Positions 31,276 to 38,147 of a stretch of DNA of 64,000 nt are shown piece by piece. The first letter of the stretch is position 1; each line of letters begins with the position of its first letter. Source of the stretch: Streptomyces sp. SCUT-3 (lineage in GTDB: Bacteria > Actinomycetota > Actinomycetes > Streptomycetales > Streptomycetaceae); contig NZ_CP046907.1 in assembly GCF_014083985.1 (NCBI RefSeq), positions 2,646,001 through 2,710,000 on the forward strand. Reading direction: 5' to 3'. The notes beneath the pieces were generated by a model. It was not told the DNA's origin and searched no databases. It was given only the letters and a program-made list of their open reading frames with translations. The position numbers and the translations under genes were made by a program.

Positions 31276-32409
31276 CTACCGGCGGCGGCGCAGCAGACGG
31301 CCGGCCACGACGGCGGAGGCCACCAGCAGCGCCGCGGCGGGGGCCGCCCACCGCAGGGCGTCCCCGACGGGGGTGGCGGAAGGAACGCCCTCGGGCGCGT
31401 AGCGGCCGCGCGGCGGCGCGTGGTCGACCTCTTCGGCGCTGCGGCCGATCATCGTGCGGCGGGCCGACGCCCCCTCGGCGGCAGCCGCGACGGGGTCGGG
31501 CACCGGGTCCGCGGACGGCTGGTCCGCCGGGGCCCGGTCGGCGGAGCGTGCCGGCTCCGGGACGGCGGGATCCGGACGGACCTGCCCCGCGCCGGGGCCG
31601 GCCCCGGCTGCGGAATCGGCACCGGACCCGGGCGTGCTGCCGAGCTCGGGCCCGCTGCCGGTTTCGGGCTCGGGCTCGGGCTCTGCTTCGGGCTCGGGCT
31701 CTACTTCGGGCTCGGGCTCGGGGGCGGCTTCGGGCTCGGGCTCGGGGACGGCCCCGGGCCTCGTTTCGGCCCCGGCCCCGGCGTCGAGGCCGGGCGCGGG
31801 GCCCGGCTCGCTCTGCTGGGGGAGCACCGGGCCGTCGGTGCCGTTGACCGTGTCCACCTCGTCCAGTACGTCCTCGGCGTCGTCCACCCGCGTCCCGTCC
31901 GCCTCGTCCGCGTCCGTGCCTGCCGCCCCGGGTGGAACGGCGGGCAGCCCCTCGACGAGCCCGGCGACGATCCGGTCCAGCAGGCGGTGTCCGGCCGCCT
32001 CCGCGGCCCGCTCCTCGAACTCTGCGGTGCGCCCGTCCGCCCGGAGGCTCCCGGTGAAGCTGAGCAGCGTCCCCAGGGTGTCGGCCCGCGCCGTCTCGAC
32101 CCCGATCTCCAGGGCGAGGCGGACCTCTCCGGTGCCGCGCGCCTCGGTGCCCTCCGCCTCGACGGCGAACCCGTCCCCCCGGGCGGTGACGCGCAGGGTT
32201 CCGCGGTAGGTGATGGTCGAGCTGCCGACCCGCAGCTTCAGCCGCCCGCTCAGCGCGGCCCCGTCGGCCGGGGGGCTCTCGATTCCTCCGTCGCGTTCGC
32301 CGCCCGCCTCGCGCTGGAAGCCGGGGATCGACCGCGCGAGCCGGTCGGCGTCGGCCAGCGCCCGGCGCACCTCGTCGGCCGCGTGCGGGACGAACACCTC
32401 ATGCTCCAT
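31276..32409 (-). CDS. SRPBCC (CoxG-like) protein with C-terminal membrane anchor
   Basis: A 377-residue protein with an N-terminal SRPBCC/CoxG lipid- or hydrophobic-ligand-binding domain (residues 1-150; MEHEVFVPHAADEVRRALADADRLARSIPGF). A long acidic linker (150-320) is rich in Glu-Pro dipeptides (EPEPEPEAAPEPEPE). One membrane segment near the end (WAAPAAALLVASAVVAGRLL) is followed by Arg residues, so the bulk should be cytosolic and tail-anchored. The (EP)n linker is probably stiff and extended. TAGGCT lies 8 nt before the ATG. Role unknown. Confidence 0.85.
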   Translation of the reverse strand: MEHEVFVPHAADEVRRALADADRLARSIPGFQREAGGERDGGIESPPADGAALSGRLKLRVGSSTITYRGTLRVTARGDGFAVEAEGTEARGTGEVRLALEIGVETARADTLGTLLSFTGSLRADGRTAEFEERAAEAAGHRLLDRIVAGLVEGLPAVPPGAAGTDADEADGTRVDDAEDVLDEVDTVNGTDGPVLPQQSEPGPAPGLDAGAGAETRPGAVPEPEPEAAPEPEPEVEPEPEAEPEPEPETGSGPELGSTPGSGADSAAGAGPGAGQVRPDPAVPEPARSADRAPADQPSADPVPDPVAAAAEGASARRTMIGRSAEEVDHAPPRGRYAPEGVPSATPVGDALRWAAPAAALLVASAVVAGRLLRRRR

Positions 32410-32476: not shown

Positions 32477-34231
32477 TCAGCCCGGGTAGCGGGGACGCAC
32501 CAGGGTCGACGGCTGCGGCGGCACGGCGGGGCGGTGCCGGGCGGCGGCGCGGGCCGCCCGGTGCAGGGATTCCCGGGTGAGGGACCGCAGCCCGGGGGCA
32601 GTGGGGCCGGGGGCCAGCACGGGCTTCTGCCGCGCGGCCAGGATCAGCCCCCAGTCGGCGGGGCGCCGCCCGCCCGGGCCCGGCGCACGCGCCGCGGTGC
32701 CGTCCGCGGTGCCGTCCGCGGTGCCCGGCCCGGCCCCGGCGTACGCGGCGTCCACGCGGTACGGGACCGTCCGCAGGCCCGCGGAGCGCACGGTGGCGTC
32801 CACCGTCCAGTACGCCTGCGGCTGCCGGGCCGCGGAACCGGCGTGGACCGCCAGTCGGCCGCCCGGGGCCATGGCCCGGCTGGCCAGTCCGAAGAACTCC
32901 CTCGAGTACAGCTTGGCGCTGTCCGCCGCGGGCGGGGCGGGCAGGTCGACGACCACCACGTCGTACTCCGTCCCGGTTCCCCTTCCGCGCAGCCATGCGA
33001 AGACGTCCGCGACCACGTGGCGGACCCTGGGGTCCTCGTGCGCACGGCCGTTGAGCGCGGTGAGGCCCGGGTCGGTCCGGGCCAGCCGGAGGAGTTCGCG
33101 GTCGGCGTCGACGACGGTCACCGACCTCACCGAGGAGTGGCGGAGCACCTCGCGCAGGGCGAGCCCGTCTGCGCCGCCGACCACCAGCACGTTCCGGTGG
33201 GGTCCGGACATGGCCGGGTGCACCAGGGCCTCGTGGTAGCGGTGCCCGTCCGCCGCGTCCGCCCGGAGCCGCCCGTCGAGGAAGAGCCGCAGCGGCTCGG
33301 GGCCGCGCACCGCCCCCGTCCCTTCCTTCCCGTACTCCTCCTCGTCCTCTTTCCCCGTGCCCCTCGCGCCGGCCGTTCCGGGGGACGCCCCGGGCTCCTC
33401 CCGGGAGGACCCGGCGGCCGCGGCACCCCGGGGGGTTCCCCCGGTGACGACGACCTGCTGCACCCCTGTGTCCCGGGACAGGAGTACCCGCGGCTCGTAG
33501 ACGGCCTGCTGTGCGGCCCGTTCGAACGGCTCCGCGCACGCCGCCGCGAGCCCCAGCACCGCCAGGGCGGCGACGAGCCCGCCGGTCAGCGCCCTGCGGG
33601 TCCGGCGGCCGAGGTCGTGCCGGAACAGGCCCACCACCAGGGCCCCTCCGGCCACCGCGTTGACGGCCCCGGTCAGCATGGCCCCGGTCAACTGCCCCAG
33701 CCAGGGCAGCAGCAGGAAGGGGAAGGCCAGCCCGCCGACGAGGGCGCCCACGTAGTCGGCGGCGAACAGGTCCGCCACGGCGCCGCCCGCGTCCTGGTGC
33801 CGGATGCGCTGGATGAGGGTCATCAGCAGCGGGATCTCAGCACCGATGAGCACCCCGATGACCACGCAGAAGACCACCAGCACCGCCCGCGACTGCCCGA
33901 GCCAGGCGAAGGACGCGTACAGGGCCATGACGGAGAGCCCGCCGGCCAGGGACAGCAGCACCTCGACGACGGCGAACCCCGCGGCCGCCCGGCACCGCCA
34001 CCGCTTGGCCAGCAGCGAGCCGACGCCCATGGAGAAGACCATCACCGACAGCACGACGGAGGTCTGGGTGACCGAGTCGCCGGACAGGTAGCCGGCCACC
34101 GCCACCAGTTCGAGTTCGTAGACGAGCCCGCAGGCGGCGCAGACGAAGACGCAGAGCAGCACGAGGGCCCGTCCGACCCCCGGGGAGACGGGGAGCGGTT
34201 GTGCGGCGGCCGGCTTCAACTGGTCGATCAC
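32477..34231 (-). CDS. Membrane polyamine aminopropyltransferase-like protein
   Basis: A 584-residue fusion: about seven membrane segments (residues 20-235) followed by a spermidine-synthase-like Rossmann domain ([44 protein letters not shown]). An Arg/Gly/Glu-rich insert of about 45 residues splits the start of the enzyme domain (after [13 protein letters not shown]), and the usual D(P/S) at the active site is DLPAPP here, so substrate use may differ. The GTG at 34231 is 6 nt after TAACGT, suggesting a leaderless message. Membrane-anchored homologues are common in actinobacteria. Confidence 0.88.
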
Positions 34232-34338: not shown

Positions 34339-34851
34339 TCAGGGGTGCCGCACGATCCGGGTCCTGGTCATCACCACCTGGCCCTCCTGGGGATAGGCGT
34401 GCCAGGTGCGCCACTGGATCCTGTCGTCCAGGCACCGCACCAGCAGCGCGGTGAAGGCGTGGTCGTCACCGGGGAAGGTTCCGGCGAGCCCGTTGGGGTG
34501 GTCCGCCACGAGGGCGAGGAGTTCCTGGGCCCTCGTCGTGAAGGCGTGCCGGGAGAGCTTGTCGACGTGCGCGGCGAACTCGTAGTCCCAGTCGCCGACC
34601 CGCTCGGCCGCCCCGGCGGGCAGCGGCATGCTCCTCCCCGGCAGGCAGGCGACGGTCTCCGAGCAGCCTCCGTGCTCGTCGTCGAGGATCACCTGGTGGG
34701 AGGCGCCGAGCAGGCGCAGTTGGACCCGGCCGGAAACACCGCCCAGATCCAGGTCCAGGGTGGCCAGGGCGGGTATCGGTTCCCTTCCCAGGGCCCAGGC
34801 CAGGTCTTCCGCCCGCGTGTCGCAGTAGGCGGTCTTCAGGGAAATGAGCAT
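34339..34851 (-). CDS. DUF2617 family protein
   Basis: A 170-residue beta-rich protein of the DUF2617 family (MLISLKTAYCDTRAEDLAWALG; GSVSGRVQLRLLGASHQV-like strand pattern; PNGLAGTFPGDDHAFTALLV). It is commonly found beside the membrane spermidine-synthase-like gene in Streptomyces and lies 107 nt upstream of it here, same strand. Function unknown. A large palindrome lies 99 nt before its start. Confidence 0.85.
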   Translation of the reverse strand: MLISLKTAYCDTRAEDLAWALGREPIPALATLDLDLGGVSGRVQLRLLGASHQVILDDEHGGCSETVACLPGRSMPLPAGAAERVGDWDYEFAAHVDKLSRHAFTTRAQELLALVADHPNGLAGTFPGDDHAFTALLVRCLDDRIQWRTWHAYPQEGQVVMTRTRIVRHP

Positions 34852-34949
34852 GGGTCGGCTCCACAGGCGCGCAGTGGATCGGTGGGCCCGTCGGCCCCGG
34901 GAGGAGCGGGGTGACGCCCCGTCGGCCCGTGCCCACGCGGGGTCCGGAA

Positions 34950-34972
34950 GTACGCAATCATGATGTGCGTAC
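34950..34972. promoter_or_regulatory. Large palindrome upstream of DUF2617 gene
   Basis: GTACGCA and TGCGTAC flank ATCATGATG, which itself contains the palindrome ATCATGAT. It lies in the spacer between the Cys-tail protein gene and DUF2617 and is A/T-richer than its surroundings. It looks like a protein-binding site. Confidence 0.5.
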
Positions 34973-35135
34973 CGCTCCCACCGGTTTTACCCAATCGGAG
35001 CAGTTTTCCCTCTTCGGAGGGGCTACCTGTTCAGGTGTTCCCCTCGCCCGGAGAGTTCGACCGGGAGCGGGCCGGGCGCCCACGGCCCCGGCCCCGCCCC
35101 CGTCGGCCGGCTTCCGACGGATGACGGACGGGGTG

Positions 35136-35492
35136 TCAGCTCCCGCCGCCGCACGAGGAGCCCCCGCCGCACGAGGAGCCGCCCGAGGAGCTCCCGCCGC
35201 ACGAGGAGCCGCCCGAGGAGCTCCCCCCGCACGAGGAGCCGCCCGAGGAGCCGCTGTCCGACGAGGCACCGCCGCAGGACGAGCCTCCGCCCGAGCCGCC
35301 GCACGAGGAGCCCGAGCTGCTCGTGGTGTCACCGGCCCACCAACTGCCGCCGCTGCCACCGCCGCTGCCACCACTGCGGTGACCCGCCGTCCGGCGTGAC
35401 CGGCCCGCGGCGACCGCCGCGACGAAGGCCGCGACGATCACCCCCACCACGAGCACCATGAACAACGCGAACACCACGAGAATGACGCTCAT
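35136..35492 (-). CDS. Small membrane protein with Ser/Gly/Cys tail (paralogue 1)
   Basis: A 118-residue protein: one N-terminal membrane segment (residues 1-29, very hydrophobic), a short basic patch (RSRRTAGHR), the motif SWWAG at 50-54, then 60 residues made only of Ser, Gly, Cys and a few Ala, Asp and Thr, repeating SSCGGSSSGG. Seven Cys are evenly spaced. The tail could bind metal or form disulfides; the topology (outside or inside) is not fixed by the sequence. It shares its layout and an upstream 32-bp motif with the gene at 35654. The reading frame seen as an Ala/Arg-rich ORF on the plus strand is a shadow of this repeat. Family not recognised. Confidence 0.75.
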   Translation of the reverse strand: MSVILVVFALFMVLVVGVIVAAFVAAVAAGRSRRTAGHRSGGSGGGSGGSWWAGDTTSSSGSSCGGSGGGSSCGGASSDSGSSGGSSCGGSSSGGSSCGGSSSGGSSCGGGSSCGGGS

Positions 35493-35590
35493 CCCGCTTC
35501 CCCCTCTCCCCCTCGGCCCCCGAGGTCCCCCGGGGCGGGCCCCCGCCCGCCCGCTGTCGTGCGCAGGTGATGCCCTCGACCGTCCTCGGC

Positions 35591-35622
35591 GAAAGCACAG
35601 TTGAGGAATACCAGAGGTTCGG
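35591..35622. repeat. Shared 32-bp upstream motif, copy 1
   Basis: 29 of 32 bases match 35942-35973; the core is GTTGAGGAATACCAGAGG. It lies about 100 nt upstream of paralogue 1. Confidence 0.85.
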
Positions 35623-35653
35623 CAGGGGCATCGCCCCGCGCGGCGGGCGCCTG

Positions 35654-35857
35654 TCAGTCCCCGCCGCCGCAGCCACCACCGCAGCTGCTGCCGCAACTGC
35701 TGCCGCCGCTGCCGCAGCCGCCGCCACCGCCGCCCGTCCACCAGCTGCCTTTGCGGTCCCGGCGCCGCTTCGACCTCCCGGACCGGTCGCCGGACGTGCT
35801 CCTCGCCACCGCGATCACCACGGCCACGCTCACGAGAATCAGGATGAAGGTCCCCAT
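35654..35857 (-). CDS. Small membrane protein with Gly/Cys tail (paralogue 2)
   Basis: A 67-residue protein with one N-terminal membrane segment (FILILVSVAVVIAVA), a strongly basic patch (RSGRSKRRRDRKG), SWWTG at 38-42, and a Gly/Ser/Cys tail (CGSGGSSCGSSCGGGCGGGD). It is a shorter version of the gene at 35136 in the same orientation. The ATG at 35857 was chosen because the membrane segment starts there; the frame to 36001 is not protein-like. It is too small for most gene finders. Confidence 0.7.
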   Translation of the reverse strand: MGTFILILVSVAVVIAVARSTSGDRSGRSKRRRDRKGSWWTGGGGGGCGSGGSSCGSSCGGGCGGGD

Positions 35858-35941
35858 CCTGTACTCCTTTCCCCCGAAGGAATCCGGGACGGGCCTCCCC
35901 GTCCCCTCCTTGTCCGGGGGATACCCCCCGCCCGCACCCCG

Positions 35942-35973
35942 GAAAGCGCGGTTGAGGAATTCCAGAGGTTCGG
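35942..35973. repeat. Shared 32-bp upstream motif, copy 2
   Basis: Near copy of 35591-35622, about 85 nt upstream of paralogue 2 and immediately before the divergent GH114-like gene. A shorter match, GGTTGAGGAA, recurs about 40 nt before the aminotransferase start at 36984. Confidence 0.85.
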
Positions 35974-35987
35974 TGGACGATGCCTGC

Positions 35988-36857
35988 GTGCAGACAGCCA
36001 CCGCGGCCCGGACTCCCCGCGCACGCCTCCCCCGCGCACGCCTTCCCCGCGGCGTCCCGTCCGCGGCCGGCGCAGCGGTGCTGGCCGCGGTCGTCCTCGC
36101 TCCGGCCGCCTGCGCGCCCCCTTCCGCCCCCGCCCCCGCCGTCGTCCCGCCGCCCGCGGGCGCCGTGTTCGACTACCAGCTCGGCGGCGCCTACCCGCCC
36201 CCCGCCGGGACCGAGGTCGTCGCCCGGGACCGGGCCGCCGAACCCGCCGAGGGCCTCTACAACATCTGCTACGTCAACGCCTTCCAGGCCCAGCCGGGCA
36301 AGGAGGACGACTGGGACCACGACCTCGTCCTCCGGGACGGGGACGGCCGGCCCGTCGTCGACGAGGACTGGGACGAGGCCCTCCTCGACATCTCGACGCC
36401 CGGCCGGCGCGCCAGGATCGCCGAGCGGGTCGACCGCTGGACCGCGCAGTGCGCGGACAAGGGCTACGACGCGGTGGAACCCGACAACTACGACTCCTAC
36501 ACGCGCAGCGGGGGCCGGCTCACCGCCGCCCACGCCAGGGCAATGATCACCCTGATCTCCCGGTACGCCCACGAGCGGGGCCTGGCGGTGGCCCAGAAGA
36601 ACACCCCCGAACTGGCCGCCCACCGGGCCGACTCGGGCCTGGACTTCGCAGTGGCGGAGGAGTGCGCCCGCTACGACGAGTGCGACGTCTACACCGAGGA
36701 GTTCGGGGACGACGTGATCGTCGTCGAGTACACCGACGCCGCGCTCGCCGACGCGTGCCGGCGGTGGGGCGGCACCCTGAGCATCGTCCGGCGGGACCTG
36801 GGCGTCACCGCCCCCGGCAGCGGCGACCACGTCCGCCGGACCTGCCCCGGCGACTGA
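35988..36857 (+). CDS. GH114-like secreted protein (endo-alpha-1,4-polygalactosaminidase family)
   Basis: A 289-residue exported protein. The Arg-rich N-terminus is followed by a hydrophobic stretch ending LAPAACAPPSAPAP, a possible lipobox with Cys near residue 40. The mature part resembles the GH114 TIM barrel: FDYQLGGAYPPPAGTEVVARDR, YNICYVNAFQAQPG, KGYDAVEPDNYDSYTR (probable active-site Asp/Glu) and LAVAQKNTPEL. It should act on galactosaminogalactan-like sugars outside the cell. GTG 35988 is chosen; GTG 35973 is also in frame. Confidence 0.82.
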   Translation: MQTATAARTPRARLPRARLPRGVPSAAGAAVLAAVVLAPAACAPPSAPAPAVVPPPAGAVFDYQLGGAYPPPAGTEVVARDRAAEPAEGLYNICYVNAFQAQPGKEDDWDHDLVLRDGDGRPVVDEDWDEALLDISTPGRRARIAERVDRWTAQCADKGYDAVEPDNYDSYTRSGGRLTAAHARAMITLISRYAHERGLAVAQKNTPELAAHRADSGLDFAVAEECARYDECDVYTEEFGDDVIVVEYTDAALADACRRWGGTLSIVRRDLGVTAPGSGDHVRRTCPGD

Positions 36858-36983
36858 CCCCCGGCCCGGGGCGGGGGGCCTTCTCGGGGGGCGGTCCTCC
36901 GCGGAACGCGCACCCCGGGTGCGCGGGAACCGTGCCGGAGGAGAGGTTGAGGAAGCGCCCGCATCCGGCGGAGGATGTCCGGC

Positions 36984-38147
36984 ATGGAACGGCCACCGCT
37001 CAACCGCAACCTCGCCGGCTTCGGGACCACGGTCTTCGCCGAGATGTCGGCACTCGCCCAGCGCACGGGCGCCATCAACCTCGGCCAGGGGTTCCCCGAC
37101 ACGGACGGCCCCGAGGCCGTGCGCGAAGCGGCCGTACGGGCGCTGCGGGACGGCCGCGGCAACCAGTACCCGCCGGGCCCCGGCGTGCCGGAGCTGCGCC
37201 GGGCCGTCGCCGACCACCAGCACCGCTGGTACGGCACCGAGTACGACCCGGACTCCGAGGTGCTGGTGACCGCGGGCGCCACGGAGGCGATCGCCGCCGC
37301 CCTGCTGGCCCTGGTGGAGCCGGGCGACGAGGTGATCGCCCTGGAGCCGTACTACGACTCGTACGCGGCGTGCATCGCCATGGCCGGCGGCACCCGGGTG
37401 CCGGTGACCCTGCGGCCGTCGGACGGGGCGTTCGTCCTGGACCCGGACGAGCTGCGCGCGGCCGTCACGCCCCGCACCCGGCTGATCCTGCTCAACACCC
37501 CGCACAACCCCACCGGCACGGTCCTCACCCGCGAGGAGCTGGCCGCGGTCGCCGCGATCGCGCAGGAGCACGACCTGCTGGTGGTCACCGACGAGGTGTA
37601 CGAGCACCTGGTCTTCGAGGGCGAGCACGTCCCCCTGGCCTCCCTGCCGGGGATGCGGGAACGCACGGTCACCATCTCCTCCGCCGGCAAGACGTTCTCC
37701 TTCACCGGCTGGAAGATCGGCTGGATCACCGGCCCGCCGGAGCTGGTGACGGCGGTGCGCACGGCCAAGCAGTTCCTGACCTACGTCTCCGGCGGCCCGT
37801 TCCAGTACGCGGTCGCCGAGGCGCTGCGGCTGCCCGGCAGCTACTTCCGCGGCTTCCTGGAGGACCTGCGGGGCAAGCGGGACCTGCTGGCCACCGGGCT
37901 GGCCGAGGCCGGGTTCGGGGTCTTCCGCCCGCAGGGCACCTACTTCGTCACCGCCGACATCCGCCCCCTGGGCCGCACGAACGGCGTGGCCTTCTGCCGT
38001 GCGCTGCCGGAGCGGGTGGGGGTGGTCGCCATCCCCAACGCGGTCTTCTACGACCACGCCGACGCCGGTGCGCCCTTCGTCCGGTTCGCCTTCTGCAAGA
38101 GGCCGGAGGTGCTGGCCGAGGCCGTCGCCCGCCTCAAGGCCCTGTGA
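36984..38147 (+). CDS. Class I/II aminotransferase (DapC-like)
   Basis: A 387-residue PLP enzyme: TPHNPTGTVLT and the PLP Lys K236 in SSAGKTFSFTGWKIGW. The N-terminal FGTTVFAEMSALAQRTGAINLGQGFPD and NQYPPGPG closely match the mycobacterial N-succinyldiaminopimelate aminotransferase as I recall it, so lysine/cell-wall synthesis is plausible; methionine or kynurenine aminotransferase is an alternative. The ATG at 36984 is preferred to 36975 because GGCGGAGG is then correctly spaced. Confidence 0.88.
   Translation: MERPPLNRNLAGFGTTVFAEMSALAQRTGAINLGQGFPDTDGPEAVREAAVRALRDGRGNQYPPGPGVPELRRAVADHQHRWYGTEYDPDSEVLVTAGATEAIAAALLALVEPGDEVIALEPYYDSYAACIAMAGGTRVPVTLRPSDGAFVLDPDELRAAVTPRTRLILLNTPHNPTGTVLTREELAAVAAIAQEHDLLVVTDEVYEHLVFEGEHVPLASLPGMRERTVTISSAGKTFSFTGWKIGWITGPPELVTAVRTAKQFLTYVSGGPFQYAVAEALRLPGSYFRGFLEDLRGKRDLLATGLAEAGFGVFRPQGTYFVTADIRPLGRTNGVAFCRALPERVGVVAIPNAVFYDHADAGAPFVRFAFCKRPEVLAEAVARLKAL

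Follow-up and report, generated by a model that had tools for sequence, protein, structure and literature searches.

Tail cysteines in a family of small, predicted membrane proteins of Streptomycetaceae track an MNIO enzyme encoded elsewhere

Two neighboring small genes lie in the window, the whole 64,000-nucleotide stretch of Streptomyces DNA that was analyzed, and the cysteines found in the C-terminal tails of their family track the presence of an MNIO enzyme (multinuclear non-haem iron oxidative, DUF692) that is encoded elsewhere in the genome. As judged from sequence conservation, these twins are real genes of an unnamed Streptomycetaceae family located beside DUF2617, and this family is found in most of the Streptomyces genomes examined. 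The explanation that we tentatively favor, short of calling it probable, is that the twins are single-pass membrane substrates of MNIO that would be modified in trans, probably to 5-thiooxazole-like rings, and that may act as a membrane-tethered, copper(I)-type metal buffer.

The twin genes and their family

Both genes are on the minus strand (Table 1), and the layout that the first-pass annotation had proposed for 35136-35857 was confirmed: an N-terminal membrane helix, a basic patch, an SWW(A/T)G motif and a Gly/Ser/Cys tail. In protein A, SWWAG corresponds to residues 50-54 and the Cys are at positions 64, 73, 88, 98, 108 and 114; in protein B, they are at positions 48, 55, 59 and 63, after SWWTG. 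A Shine-Dalgarno-like purine-rich stretch is located 5' of both ATGs.

Table 1. Features of the twin locus in the window
Feature	Position	Strand	Basis
Membrane-fused polyamine aminopropyltransferase (spermidine-synthase-like), next gene of the neighborhood	32477..34231	-	domain match
DUF2617 protein, downstream neighbor, syntenic anchor	34339..34851	-	domain match
Small membrane protein A, 118 aa: N-terminal helix, basic stretch, SWWAG, 6-Cys tail	35136..35492	-	ORF and family comparison
GGGCATC, second conserved box of the gene A element, possible -10	35569..35575	-	motif; promoter role inferred
Upstream element of gene A, CTCTGGNNTTSCTCAANTNNGCTTT, 0 mismatches	35592..35616	-	motif match
Small membrane protein B, 67 aa: N-terminal helix, strongly basic stretch, SWWTG, 4-Cys tail	35654..35857	-	ORF and family comparison
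GGGTATC, second conserved box of the gene B element, possible -10	35920..35926	-	motif; promoter role inferred
Upstream element of gene B, 1 mismatch	35943..35967	-	motif match
PLP-dependent aminotransferase, usual divergent upstream neighbor in relatives	36975..38147	+	domain match, synteny

A direct search with protein A alone was weak owing to its composition (matches in 4 of 41 genomes), so 80 named loci were fetched with DUF2617 as the syntenic anchor. In 60 of them, a homolog occupies the syntenic position, corresponding to 62 genes according to our filter; six of the 20 loci without the small gene are contigs that end less than 600 bases upstream. Family counts given below for 64 members combine these 62 locus genes with the two window genes. 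A profile search, in which few candidates were scored per genome, recovered the family in at least 62 of 200 genomes. The small gene and DUF2617 are separated by 178-1103 nt, and DUF2617 is retained at loci that lack the small gene. That the twins arose by local duplication, as had been supposed, agrees with the two genes in the window compared with 62 genes in 60 loci (one locus, L064, has three tandem copies) and with each twin having its own copy of an upstream element; since the helices of proteins A and B are unlike each other, we judged this duplication not to be recent.

Over the 64 members, the tail that follows the Trp pair is composed of 51% Gly, 25% Ser, 9% Cys and 5% His, and the number and positions of the Cys vary freely. 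Tail Cys directly precede a Gly in 249 of 267 cases, compared with 42% for the other tail residues. The regular Cys spacing expected from the first-pass annotation was found over the family, in which steps of 6 (113 counts) and 7 (39 counts) are the commonest, but only partly within the window, where the steps are 9, 15, 10, 10 and 6 in protein A and 7, 4 and 4 in protein B. As many as 73 codon spellings account for the 103 occurrences of the hexapeptide SSCGGG, therefore selection acts at the protein level; with this and the homologs at 60 of the 80 loci, the reading frame turned out to be conserved in relatives. Tail frameshifts, which had been named as a sign against coding, were seen in few relatives (the tails of L065 and L078 look frame-shifted in our reading) and not in the rest. 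Codon-position differences between six close pairs (42, 32 and 59 at positions 1, 2 and 3) are too few to decide.

When compared with Pfam and NCBIfam, proteins A and B gave chance-level matches alone, none of them near the cut-off, in line with the earlier statement that no described family has this layout; there was no TIGR04222 match above 43 bits (NCBIfam model) and no match to DUF1190 or to a curated metallothionein family in either collection. Rfam over 34800-37000 gave two matches, both far below gathering scores. Our literature searches found no description of this small-protein family, and those with SCO3654 to SCO3658, the presumed locus numbers in S. coelicolor, returned an unrelated table only.

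In 63 of the 64 members, the segment that follows the helix has a more positive net charge than the segment that precedes it. As to whether the helix might be a signal peptide, judged from the charge pattern alone, there is no charge before it and positive charge behind it. By the positive-inside rule, the positively charged side of a membrane helix is cytoplasmic, so the tail should face the cytoplasm, with the N-terminus predicted to be out. This prediction places the tail in a reducing compartment and speaks against the disulfide mesh or surface anchor that had been suggested for its cysteines.

Upstream of the twins, domain matches in the window correspond to GH114, PLP aminotransferase, YbjN and ClpB genes. 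The GH114 domain (36168-36782, inside an ORF at 35601-36857 on the plus strand) is located between the twins and the aminotransferase; because none of the 80 named loci has a GH114 match, this gene looks like a lineage-specific insertion at the twin locus. On the other side, the gap between gene A and DUF2617 contains a perfect inverted repeat (34951-34973, 7-base arms and 9-base spacer) that was absent from the other loci examined, and inverted repeats in this gap had no motif common to the loci compared. A region at 31276-32409 on the minus strand encodes a product with a long Glu/Pro-rich stretch, a C-terminal hydrophobic segment and an N-terminal lipid-binding (CoxG/polyketide-cyclase-like) match, which was weak, as were all its Pfam matches.

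A conserved element upstream of the small gene

An element of ~50 bp, made of GAACCTCTGGANTTSCTCAASTSTGCTTTGG, 14 weakly conserved bases and GGGCATC, is located 5' of the start codon at a near-constant spacing in 57 of the 64 genes. When the 80 loci were searched by the element core, element and gene were both present in 59, both missing in 20, and the gene was alone in one. Ten matches with up to two mismatches were detected in nine of 41 whole genomes, two of them in the window genome, and all ten are followed by a small gene of the family. In a larger draw, the element was found in 253 of 394 Streptomycetaceae genomes, and in 233 of the 250 genomes of group g10, which includes Streptomyces, with up to two mismatches; element-like matches with no small gene after them in the fetched stretch were seen in G392 and G322. 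The two copies in the window, one per twin, show that the element accompanies the small gene.

No base-pair covariation stood out among the element columns, so that a DNA element seems likelier than an RNA element. Its boxes and their spacing resemble those of a stress-sigma promoter (sigma-B-type consensus), a putative role. Three other readings were dropped: an RNA structure, as there were no compensating changes among columns; a hidden peptide, as the spacing to the start codon varies modulo 3 and no variation is seen at several positions that would be synonymous; and a promoter of the divergent aminotransferase, as this gene is in place at L097 and L098, where both element and small gene are absent.

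A second, shortened element-like site, with the same first 17-18 bases and a different end, was found ~0.9 to 17 kb from the main element in L250, L251, L263 and L272, and also in G338, G339 and G340; no evident small gene follows it in the four loci that were read (L250, L251, L263 and L272).

Tail cysteines and the MNIO enzyme

The window genome contains a single MNIO gene (PF05114/DUF692; G000:C1:1336763-1337578), ~1.34 Mb from the twins, and for its product matches were obtained to 3bww, a DUF692 structure, and to 8hci, 8hi7 and 8hi8 of the DUF692 family, presumably TglH. No physical linkage between the small gene and MNIO was seen, and in the window genome no Cys-tail ORF of at least 50 aa was seen in the 16 kb around the MNIO gene and no TIGR04222 match was found. 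Among the 12 MNIO neighborhoods that were read, a Cys-tail protein adjoins MNIO in G006, G011, G013, G022, G023 and G024. Of the stretches fetched around MNIO genes, L278 and L287 were analyzed and L277, L279-L286 and L288-L292 were left out. The arrangement of MNIO and its partner varies: in the window genome (L196:7758-9116), MNIO is followed, in frame past a stop codon, by a partner-domain ORF, the two are fused in G009, G023, G067 and G156, and in G005, G011, G020 and G022 the frame of MNIO stops short of a partner domain.

Among 200 Streptomycetaceae genomes, PF05114 gave a strong match in 151, a weak match in seven (E above 1e-50, not counted as MNIO-positive) and none in 42. In a first set of 78 genomes whose tails were read, at least two tail Cys were found in 69 of the 70 strong-MNIO genomes and in 0 of the 8 without MNIO (Fisher p 4e-10, descent not corrected for), the two-Cys threshold having been set after this set had been seen. 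A further 194 genomes, of which nine are MNIO-negative, came from a second draw: all 27 MNIO-positive genomes with a tail read had at least two Cys, and the two MNIO-negative tails that were read had two (G368) and, in its close relative G375, one. Over both draws, 96 of 97 MNIO-positive but 1 of 10 MNIO-negative genomes with tails read have at least two tail Cys, the total of ten leaving out G221, G284, G307 and G312, in which the element is present. A strict rule is contradicted by G368, which has two tail Cys and no MNIO, and the reverse exception is G043, in which MNIO is present with a Cys-less His tail.

These counts are per genome, using the copy with the most tail Cys (G095 also has a one-Cys copy). 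G392 and G322, with an element-like match and no small gene, were left out of the second set; G007, G016 and G021 were entered by reading, though they have no element within three mismatches; and the MNIO-negative G093, with a His-rich tail, was not counted. G140 and G375, with one Cys each, were counted below two, as was G015, whose one Cys is in the basic stretch.

The MNIO-negative members differ in what has become of their tails, which are lost in G007, G012, G021 and G050, made of Gly/His in G015 and G016, acidic and Gly-containing in G059, and left with one or two residual Cys in G140, G375 and G368. Both states are found within genus g13, whose MNIO-positive member G041 has a Cys tail and whose MNIO-negative members G012 and G050 do not. 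The Cys-tail gene was found in 69 of the 151 strong-MNIO genomes; MNIO is thus also present where the small gene is not, and must act on further substrates.

Common descent may lie behind this co-occurrence, given that a tree-corrected test offers three pairs only, with a median p of 0.25. A DUF2617 tree of 92 genomes requires seven changes for MNIO and six for the Cys state; the three well-supported independent pairs went in the predicted direction in 2.5 cases on average over random pairings and never in the opposite one, and three pairs cannot reach significance. This quick tree has long branches for G000, G022, G059, G116 and G011.

A 2025 survey (PMC12452194) proposes that a subset of TIGR04222 membrane proteins with Gly/Ser/Cys tails are MNIO substrates. 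The presence of TIGR04222 does not track the tail state of the small gene: of the eight first-set genomes that lack MNIO, G012, G015, G050 and G140 gave a match and none was obtained in G007, G016, G021 and G059. Nine of the ten strong-MNIO genomes without a TIGR04222 match, the window genome included, carry the small Cys-tail gene (TIGR04222 detection being a lower bound). A TIGR04222 match is present in 21 MNIO-negative genomes, some with two, and none of the nine proteins that were read, from nine genomes, has a Gly/Ser/Cys tail, compared with at least two tail Cys in 6 of the 12 proteins read from MNIO-positive genomes. In genus g13, the single TIGR04222 protein of G041, G012 and G050 has no Gly/Ser/Cys tail in any of the three. 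Cys tails of TIGR04222 proteins were thus seen only in MNIO-positive genomes among those read, which points to the same MNIO dependence in a family already proposed as substrates.

The twins resemble TIGR04222 proteins in this respect and in combining a membrane anchor with a Gly/Ser/Cys C-terminal tail, and some TIGR04222 genes adjoin an MNIO gene. They differ in having no match to the model, one helix, no MNIO linkage and a predicted cytoplasmic tail, whereas TIGR04222 corresponds to a 229-position model with several membrane segments, large outer domains and tails placed in the periplasm, according to the same survey (PMC12452194).

Possible roles of the tail

According to PMC13097082, MNIO enzymes oxidize peptides, often at Cys, and their EGKCG-type substrates, which contain Cys-Gly, are converted to copper-binding 5-thiooxazoles. 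In the explanation that we favor, the helix would hold the tail at the inner membrane face, within reach of cytosolic MNIO and its partner, and MNIO would oxidize in trans the Cys of the repeated [S/G]-Cys-Gly units. The products would probably be 5-thiooxazoles or a related ring bearing a thiol; together with any His, the modified Cys would bind a soft metal, most likely copper(I), and the protein would be a membrane-tethered metal buffer. Extended to the family, this proposal becomes a shade more tentative: there would be a near-universal Streptomyces family of membrane-anchored, cytoplasm-facing MNIO substrates, modified from a distant locus, with captophorin-like rings kept at the membrane and with a dedicated promoter element, in which MNIO loss would lead to tail decay or to His.

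We infer the enzyme-substrate relation from co-occurrence and carry the putative tail chemistry and metal over from known MNIO products; the physiological role is likewise a suggestion. That the tail binds metal is a good guess, strengthened by the replacements of Cys by His and by the MNIO link. Loss of Cys, or a turn to His, where MNIO is missing fits a metal-binding tail whose sulfur ligands would depend on this enzyme. Beside the twins, neither a copper gene nor a regulator was recognized.

A close comparison is also with captophorins, bufferins and oxazolins, MNIO-made copper peptides with 5-thiooxazoles that have Cys repeats, with Cys-Gly in the EGKCG type, as do the twins. They are MNIO targets and bind copper (PMC13097082, PMC12452194), two properties that are putative in the twins. 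All three kinds carry Sec signal peptides and are encoded in clusters that include MNIO and a DUF2063-type partner, the captophorin clusters having been described from Pseudomonadota (PMC13097082, PMC12452194), whereas the twins would be orphan and membrane-retained. The twins also lack the flanking E-G-K of the EGKCG type, although repeated Cys-Gly is present. MNIO chemistry is known already, and so is the idea of membrane substrates with Cys tails (PMC12452194, PMC13097082); a single-helix, membrane-retained, orphan substrate located far from its enzyme and having its own upstream element would be new. If the twins are MNIO substrates, a widespread, unnamed Streptomyces family would gain a function, precursors of MNIO chemistry would not need to cluster with their enzyme and would be missed by gene-neighborhood mining, and the twins would be an example of enzyme-made metal ligands held at the membrane. 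The family also offers a system that can be tested directly in laboratory strains that are easy to handle.

Among the alternatives, a membrane-tethered, metallothionein-like protein fares best, though we consider it unlikely: free Cys and His would bind zinc, copper or nickel with no enzyme involved, and the MNIO link would reflect shared habitat or ancestry. The His-rich tails that replace Cys tails in G015, G016 and G043, and also in G093, would fit a kept ligand capacity, as would the 32 of 64 members whose tails have Cys plus at least two His, but neither the disappearance of Cys along with MNIO nor the strong preference for Cys-Gly would be explained. Metallothioneins, with their CXC and CXXC motifs, and histidine-rich stores such as Hpn are small and Cys- or His-rich with Gly, like the twins; unlike them, they are soluble and have no membrane helix, and the family spacing of 6-7 is unlike CXC/CXXC.

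A structural or scaffolding role, which we find improbable, would have the low-complexity tail cluster at the membrane and serve the polyamine genes encoding DUF2617 and the membrane-fused aminopropyltransferase. The small gene is indeed 5' of DUF2617 at the loci examined, and polyamine operons with relatives of DUF350 and DUF2617 hold small envelope proteins, among them the metal-chelating DUF1190, according to PMC11237479. Against such a role, DUF2617 is kept where the small gene is missing, the two genes are up to 1103 nt apart, and a few small-gene copies (G095, G165) are located elsewhere in the chromosome. DUF1190 is also a small envelope protein encoded near polyamine-synthase-like genes, but it is a lipoprotein (PMC11237479), and the twins do not match it.

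Still less probable is a thiol-redox sensor or mycothiol-dependent switch at the inner membrane face. Such a switch could be accommodated by a predicted cytoplasmic tail with several thiols and by the presumed stress-sigma-like spacing in the upstream element, but the free variation in Cys number and positions would be unusual for it, and it does not predict the MNIO link.

A RiPP precursor modified by a YcaO cyclodehydratase, as for microcin B17, which is similarly rich in Gly, Ser and Cys, appears very improbable. The window genome does have one YcaO match, at 5.83 Mb, but the twins are at 2.68 Mb, so that no YcaO gene was found beside them (the only genome match being ~3.15 Mb off), and a membrane helix occupies the place where a leader peptide is expected. 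Moreover, YcaO, used as a control enzyme, was found in all 7 Cys-tail genomes and all 5 Cys-less ones among the first 41, and therefore does not track the tail.

That the twins are not genes, the G+C-rich noncoding repeat being read as protein, is scarcely credible, for although a tandem repeat is present in the DNA and two tails show apparent frame changes (L065 and L078), one hexapeptide is spelled in so many ways, synteny is conserved, ribosome-binding-like sequences are present and the upstream element comes and goes with the gene.

Extra copies of the element with a small Cys-tail gene were also seen, in L247 and L248 (G095), L249 (G165), L313 (G271) and L314 (G367). Those of G095 are at other chromosomal places, some of them near the chromosome ends, and those of G165, G271 and G367 are in pairs; in one copy of G165 and one of G367, the tail consists almost purely of Ser and Cys.
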